Assembly (NCBI GenBank): GCA_019359095.1
Contig: JAHHHZ010000028.1
Span: forward strand, 62,001 to 126,000
Reading direction: 5' to 3'
DNA: 64,000 nucleotides
From: Pleurocapsa minor HA4230-MV1
Lineage (GTDB): Bacteria; Cyanobacteriota; Cyanobacteriia; Cyanobacteriales; Xenococcaceae
Each line of letters begins with the position of its first letter. Position 1 is the first letter of the stretch. The notes beneath the pieces are model-generated. The model was given only the letters and a program-made list of their open reading frames with translations, searched no databases and was not told the DNA's origin. Below, in pieces: positions 41,764-44,594 of this stretch. The translations under genes and the position numbers were made by a program.

Positions 41764-41904
41764 TTAAAGCCCGCCTCGTTTATCTCGCCCTTGACGACGG
41801 CGATCGCGCCACTGGACAACAGAAAGATAGCCAACTCCTAAACTTAGTAGCCCTAGAATGCCTATGGCTACTAGAAACAGAGTATTTAGTAATTGAGTTT
41901 CCAC
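41764..41904 (-). CDS. 46-aa single-membrane-span protein coupled to petN
   Basis: Starts with GTG at 41904, only two bases after the petN stop, and ends with TAA at 41764. The product VETQLLNTLFLVAIGILGLL continues into a hydrophobic helix (to about residue 30) and ends with a very basic tail QWRDRRRQGRDKRGGL, predicting a lumenal/outside N-terminus and cytoplasmic tail by the positive-inside rule. The tight coupling to petN suggests a role in the cytochrome b6f complex or its assembly, or just co-expression. I do not recognise it as any named subunit. Coding support: clean frame, protein-like helix-plus-basic tail. Confidence 0.75.
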   Translation of the reverse strand: METQLLNTLFLVAIGILGLLSLGVGYLSVVQWRDRRRQGRDKRGGL

Positions 41905-42115: not shown

Positions 42116-42550
42116 TTAAATAAAGGGTTTGATTAGCTTACGAGCGATCGCCAAATCCAAAATTAAACGAGCGATCGCAAAACAGACAATACTTTGCAAA
42201 ACTAAACCAGCTAAAGATAATAGTTCAGCTAAAACCAAGTTTCTTTCAACTAAAGCCAATCCTCTAACTAAACCAAAGGCAAGTACGGCACCGTCTTGAA
42301 GATGAGAATTGCGATCGCTGCGAATTATATAGCGATAGGTTACGCCAAACAAAAAACCACTAACTGCACCAATAGCTAATTGAATCGCCGATATCCAGCT
42401 AATGACCCCAAAATTAGTATTCAATTTGAGGATCAAATCGCTCACCAAACCTTGAACTACCAACAATACTAATGCTGCCAGGGTAAATGCGATCGCGCCG
42501 ATCAGTCCCGCCTTAACAGATTCAATCCTTTCCGTAACTAAACTAGGCAC
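42116..42550 (-). CDS. Integral membrane protein of unknown function (144 aa)
   Basis: Four predicted membrane helices (about 12-34, 46-68, 86-104, 112-130). Not recognised beyond looking like small cyanobacterial membrane proteins annotated as hypothetical. Helix glycine and alanine spacing (GAIAFTLAALVLLVVQGLV) and the loop RYIIRSDRNSHLQDGA are notable. It lies 119 bases upstream of petN on the same strand, so it could be part of the same transcript. Confidence 0.75.
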   Translation of the reverse strand: MPSLVTERIESVKAGLIGAIAFTLAALVLLVVQGLVSDLILKLNTNFGVISWISAIQLAIGAVSGFLFGVTYRYIIRSDRNSHLQDGAVLAFGLVRGLALVERNLVLAELLSLAGLVLQSIVCFAIARLILDLAIARKLIKPFI

Positions 42551-44458: not shown

Positions 44459-44526
44459 GGGACTTGGGGACTTGGAGACTTGGGGACTTGGGGACTTGGG
44501 GACTTGGGGACTTGGGGACTTGGGGA
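44459..44526. repeat. Octamer tandem array GGGGACTT
   Basis: About eight near-perfect copies of GGACTTGG. The reverse-complement array (CCCCAAGT) occurs at 54076-54116. Confidence 0.92.
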
Positions 44527-44594
44527 ATCACTTTATTTAAAGTCGTTAGTCATACTCGATCTTACTTGGCGATCGCCAACAACAAAGTAAAGAA

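Follow-up and report, generated by a model that had tools for sequence, protein, structure and literature searches.

The 46-codon open reading frame (ORF) that follows petN in Pleurocapsa minor HA4230-MV1 encodes a genuine conserved protein, far beyond anything attributable to chance, and its distribution matches the phyletic range of the oxygenic cyanobacteria: nearly all of those sampled carry the family. The photosynthetic membrane has been thought nearly fully catalogued; here is a gene that, in the genomes sampled, is about as widespread as petN itself, and for which our searches found neither a name, nor a profile, nor a structure. Genomes that lack photosystems are telling. Decay of the gene where both photosystem I (PSI) and photosystem II (PSII) are missing, set against its retention where PSII alone is missing, leads to a testable hypothesis: that the protein acts on the PSI side.

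The ORF and its neighbour lie on the minus strand of the window – the whole 64,000-nucleotide stretch of DNA that was analysed – at the positions given in Table 1. The original prediction was right as to coordinates, helix and tail, and left the strand unsaid; on the plus strand the corresponding frame is interrupted by stops. The placement of a GTG start just past the petN stop was borne out, and the identity of petN is certain (Pfam PetN, E 5.6e-18; the NCBIfam equivalog scores over its cut-off). Both the predicted single helix and the strongly basic tail agree with the analysis: the product has one hydrophobic stretch, its best 19-residue window reaching a mean Kyte-Doolittle value of 2.36, and AlphaFold models a single helix with a mean pLDDT of 89. 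The protein finds one match in its own genome, no Pfam family better than E 0.3 and no NCBIfam family; when the region was scanned for promoters and terminators, no signal exceeded shuffled sequence. Immediately 5′ of petN the window also holds a 144-aa hydrophobic ORF (42116-42550, minus strand), for which neither Pfam nor NCBIfam gave a convincing match, and at 44464-44590 a simple repeat that encodes LGDLGTWG-type peptides in several frames.

Table 1. Features of the microprotein gene and its upstream neighbour in the window.
Feature	Position	Strand	Remarks
46-aa ORF	41764..41904	-	GTG start 41904-41902, stop 41766-41764
Transmembrane segment, residues 9-27	41824..41880	-	hydrophobicity and AlphaFold; within long predicted helix 2-43
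Basic tail, residues 32-46	41767..41811	-	net charge +5; conserved WRDRRR motif at its beginning
petN, 29 aa	41907..41996	-	upstream neighbour; stop 2 nt from the GTG of the ORF

Evidence that the ORF is a conserved gene came from tblastn, from selection on the frame and from a phylum-wide profile search. By tblastn the family was present in 143 of 150 genomes (that of the window included) at E <= 10, in 140 of them at 1e-3 or better, and in 136 of the 139 well-assembled genomes. Seven genomes gave no match (G001, G004, G017, G024, G052, G073 and G148); G148, the one of these checked for PetN, has no PetN either. Across ten loci of the window's genus pN/pS was 0.18 in the proposed frame; the two shifted frames gave 1.17 and 2.47. 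Differences at codon positions 1, 2 and 3 numbered 315, 141 and 805. That this is a real membrane microprotein, as originally proposed, thus stands on firm ground.

The profile search, built from 21 members (A1) and run against 386 genomes drawn from the phylum, recovered the family in 182 genomes, while PetN (PF03742) matched in 183 of the same draw. Among the matches listed, 181 genomes have both (intactness was read for part of these, and one of them, G293, is a relic copy), PetN occurs without the family in G261 and G369 only, and PetN is absent from same-phylum genomes outside the class. The class members G148, G105 and G345 have neither gene. The one reverse case, an uninspected family match without PetN in G158, which lies outside the class, is probably due to chance (E 0.0011). 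We measured breadth by genome-wide searches because a contig pattern scan with the single seed WRDRRRQxRD found only 24 relatives. No relative was found in phages or plasmids; among viral contigs 69 pattern matches yielded none that was confirmed, with a seed that is the tail motif and hence misses tail-less forms.

The association with petN is close, and the same frame does recur behind petN in relatives – the comparison on which the original prediction had staked itself. Of 30 loci fetched, 27 pass the motif filter (L010, L011 and L019 fail), and 26 of these have petN immediately 5′ in the same orientation, no more than about 60 nt away; in the remaining one, L027 (G121), petN was missed by the pattern and its adjacency is seen in the genome-wide comparison. 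That comparison took in 150 listed places of the family and 129 of PetN, and omitted about 20 rows from f41 genomes of 1.6-1.9 Mb. Among the matches listed, 105 of 125 genomes with both genes have them adjacent on one strand, the matches 3-180 nt apart; in the other 20 the gene is detached from petN and yet retained. When 750-850 nt around petN were read in eight of the omitted f41 genomes, all eight had the family ORF on the strand of petN. The median gap between petN stop and ORF start is 5 nt (136 loci). Start codons can be taken as indicative only, given a start rule that favoured ATG or GTG near a fixed distance: 162 loci, repeats included, reduce to 136 distinct proteins with 90 GTG and 45 ATG starts chosen (the single undetermined start is that of the G293 relic), and at the position aligned with the start of the window ORF, 82 of 131 members have GTG, 33 ATG and 16 another codon. 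Because the gap is so short and GTG the usual start, translation probably proceeds by termination-reinitiation after petN.

Family members share the consensus G-G-x-x-Y-L-T-x-x-E-W-R-D-R-R-R. In an alignment of 71 members (135 references were available) Tyr26 is invariant, and M1, L9, A13, G23, L27, W32, R33, D34, R35, R36 and R37 are conserved in at least 90%; among 38 more widely spread members Y26 is again invariant, and the 90% level is reached only at L9, L27, D34, R36 and R37. Tail charge has a family median of +4, and in the 1.6-1.9 Mb genomes the tail is short and follows the pattern [WF]-K-D-[KN]-[RK]-R.

One member of the family has in all likelihood been on record for some time. Table 2 of PMC5126843 places the hypothetical 49-aa gene sgl0002 of Synechocystis at 159812-159961 on the minus strand, 42 nt downstream of petN (sml0004, 160004-160093, minus strand). 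Our G061 (L029) has a family ORF of 49 aa, 42 nt past petN; on position, length and spacing, sgl0002 of strain PCC 6803 is likely the orthologue. The window ORF fits this petN-downstream family in strand, position, possession of one helix and a basic tail of the WRDRRR type, and nothing is known in which sgl0002 differs. In PMC4770689 a meta-analysis of 756 arrays put sgl0002 in a 43-gene photosynthesis cluster of PSII (15 genes), PSI, b6f and phycobilisome genes; its product was predicted to have a single hydrophobic domain, and the gene was noted to share its orientation and region with petN. Calling the gene previously overlooked was therefore half right: no function, name, profile or structure was found for it, but sgl0002 carried an annotation, and where it lies and with what it is co-expressed had been noted in 2016. 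The open-access literature searched holds no functional study of sgl0002 and does not mention the WRDRRR motif; PMC9958174 mentions sml0004 and not sgl0002.

An indication of what the protein may do comes from four genomes of genus label g88 – G261 (2,794,318 bp), G293 (3,020,309 bp), G369 and G511 – a label they have in common with G258, in which the largest contig seen is 4,679,413 bp. These sizes may be set beside the roughly 3.02 Mbp of the Rhopalodia gibberula spheroid body (RgSB) and the 4.68 Mbp of its relative PCC 8801, and PMC5638926 states that functional photosystem genes were not found in the spheroid body; we infer that the four are diatom endosymbionts. In G261, G369 and G293 psaA/B and PF00124 (psbA/D) are absent or reduced to fragments, most with stops, and in G511 neither was found. 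The b6f genes tell a different story: petN and petG are intact in all four, and petA in the three tested.

Directly 3′ of each intact petN a recognisable remnant of the ORF persists. Relative to G258, petN has no indel in any of the four, whereas insertions or deletions of 1 to 11 nt interrupt the ORF in every one, differing from genome to genome. The frame from the start position ends after six codons in G261, one in G293 and nine in G511, where the start codon is GTA; G369 keeps 33 codons in frame from GTG, enough for most of the helix, and lacks the Tyr-Leu...WRDRRR part. The broken gene of G293 contrasts with the chlorophyll genes of RgSB, nine of ten of which bear no sign of damage (PMC5638926). 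The family to which G258 belongs has matches in 46 of 50 genomes; those without are G261, G369, G511 and G491. The last of these (5.6 Mb, 210 contigs) may have an assembly gap or a real loss.

A complementary case is provided by G482 and G483, genomes of 1.4-1.5 Mb with no PF00124 match, intact psaA and psaB, and petN and petG present. This gene content is the UCYN-A set: PSI retained, PSII lost (PMC11070190). Both have an intact 44-aa ORF after petN (L105:1604-1735, L106:1604-1735) with a dN/dS of 0.15 between them. The first 27 codons differ by nine synonymous and five non-synonymous changes, the tail by four and seven, which suggests constraint on both, slightly stronger on the helix. WRDRRR is lost and the tail charge is down to +1 and +2, a value of +2 being shared by two other family members. 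Such a replaced tail hints, at the level of sequence, at separate partners for helix and tail, and the role in these genomes may be different. Taken together, the two sets of genomes indicate that the gene follows the photosystems rather than the b6f genes as such, and that PSII is dispensable for its retention.

Detached copies offer a further view. We examined the surroundings of 15 of the 20; ten neighbouring genes were scanned against Pfam, and nine of these against NCBIfam as well. In four loci of f10/g17 (L090, L091, L099 and L102; L090 scanned, the others judged by opening residues) the gene adjoins a divergent psb27 and lies upstream of pam68; rpsO is among the listed ORFs of two, and in L099 a 396-aa ORF without identification stands between psb27 and the gene. 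Both psb27 and pam68 are PSII assembly-factor genes, and this neighbourhood points to PSII assembly. In two f39 loci, both scanned, the gene is 3′ of plastocyanin petE; a 272-aa plastocyanin-like ORF at L093:4996-5814 matches the plastocyanin profile in part, through frameshift or fusion. In one scanned f44 locus it is 3′ of menB, which is required for the PSI quinone. Seven loci of f2 and f9 (three scanned) have it after a transglutaminase-like protein, and in one f10 genome its neighbours are recR, identified by eye, and crcB, which was scanned. Three of the five contexts are photosynthetic, and eight of the 15 copies have uninformative neighbours.

Comparison with known small membrane proteins gave no counterpart. 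PetN, PetG, PetL and PetM likewise have a single short membrane helix, a tiny gene and a link to the petN neighbourhood; the microprotein differs in its strongly basic tail, and in being frameshifted in all four photosystem-less genomes where petN and petG stay intact, a fate at odds with a b6f subunit, which should be kept wherever b6f is kept. Searches of the PDB with one sequence and two profiles turned up none of the b6f chains at E <= 10, and the positive control, PetN, was recovered in 7r0w, 7zxy, 2zt9, 1vf5 and others; by these searches the protein is not among the members of the solved cyanobacterial b6f complexes. The original prediction, which could link it to none of PetG, L, M, N or P, is upheld here, and its suggestion of a b6f-associated peptide, in the form given, is not supported, in view of the same lack of a match in the structures and of the four frameshifts.

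NdhP and NdhQ of NDH-1L are similar in having about 5 kDa and one helix, and the N-terminus of NdhP is predicted to be lumenal (PMC4131877). The same searches, whose positive control was PetN, returned no NdhP or NdhQ chain at E <= 10, and the Synechocystis genes, ndhP (sml0013) and ndhQ (Norf6), both lie away from petN according to PMC5126843; identity with NdhP was accordingly dropped. What the PDB did return we regard as noise: complex I chain 3 by phmmer (E 0.55) and, by profile, excisionase (0.93 and 1), Notch 1 (2.2), a potassium channel (6.5) and PsbM (8c29_M, 6.9). No chain matches above noise, which makes it improbable that the protein is a stoichiometric component of a solved complex.

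Some family members also show weak profile similarity to PsbZ (Ycf9): 10 of 38 match TIGR03043, best E 0.0024, and five match Ycf9, best E 0.0036. We judged these to be at noise level, as we did HemY_N (16 of 38, best E 0.0011) and TRAP_alpha (12 of 38, 0.0014). PsbZ has two helices; the family persists in the absence of psbA/D, the window protein itself matches neither profile at E <= 0.5, and neither a match of that protein above the curated cut-off nor dependence on PSII was found.

Decay in the absence of both photosystems despite the presence of b6f genes, together with persistence in genomes that have lost PSII alone, leads us to favour – tentatively, and at somewhat less than even confidence – an accessory or biogenesis factor of the PSI side, neither an intrinsic b6f subunit nor specific to PSII. 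As to topology, site of action and mechanism, we infer that the protein crosses the photosynthetic membrane once and that ribosomes just finishing petN would start its translation, as the small spacing and the prevalence of GTG starts suggest. By the positive-inside rule its N-terminus would be lumenal and the WRDRRR tail cytoplasmic. It would act on the PSI side of the chain, whether on the photosystem, on the delivery of chlorophyll to it or on the link between b6f and PSI. The matched phyletic range, the endosymbiont decay, the retention in UCYN-A-type genomes, the co-expression with photosynthesis genes and the petE and menB neighbours all speak for this reading. What weakens it most is that all four losses fall within one clade (g88), where loss of constraint may have been a single event in widely decaying genomes. 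Against it, too, the G369 copy is truncated rather than obliterated, G491 has no match, the UCYN-A-type ORFs have shed the conserved tail and more than half of the detached copies examined have uninformative neighbours, while the coupling to petN itself favours b6f and the psb27/pam68 context favours PSII assembly. A more speculative version, which we can offer as a possibility but would not bet on, makes the microprotein, translated in tandem with PetN, a factor hitherto missing from the b6f-PSI half, for its biogenesis or its coupling, its helix needed wherever there is PSI and its tail serving something lost with PSII.

The strongest rival is a partner that b6f needs only when it works photosynthetically: a non-core, substoichiometric accessory in chlorophyll handling, turnover or supercomplex tuning. 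Adjacency to petN, the short gap and co-expression with b6f and photosystem genes alike (PMC4770689) suit it well, and even the decayed endosymbiont copies could be accommodated if b6f in those genomes serves respiration alone and carries no chlorophyll; on the other hand, no b6f chain searched in the PDB matches it, 20 of 125 genomes among the matches listed keep it detached from petN, and it is frameshifted where b6f genes stay, so that we consider this possible and on balance doubtful. We think it unlikely that the protein is a general factor for membrane insertion of chlorophyll proteins, on the ribosome, SecY/YidC or chlorophyll-synthase side, its basic tail touching the ribosome: the tail, the decay where photosystems are lost, the retention with PSI alone and the four loci beside rpsO-pam68 and psb27 agree with such a role, yet that neighbourhood comes from one lineage only and the tail is altered in UCYN-A-type genomes that still hold PSI genes. 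A PSII-specific subunit or assembly factor is improbable by a wider distance; the psb27/pam68 context of that one lineage, co-expression with PSII genes and the faint PsbZ and PsbM similarities are outweighed by purifying selection on the ORF in G482 and G483, which have no PF00124 match, and by the want of any PSII chain above noise. Finally, a very short ORF with a GTG start and no Pfam or NCBIfam family invites dismissal as chance or as regulatory read-through of petN, an explanation that class-wide conservation and codon-level selection refute and to which we give practically no weight.

The genome of the window has two full-length psaA/psaB pairs, at G000:C28:26418-31066 on the minus strand and G000:C36:272719-277270 on the plus strand; the second is perhaps a set for special light conditions.
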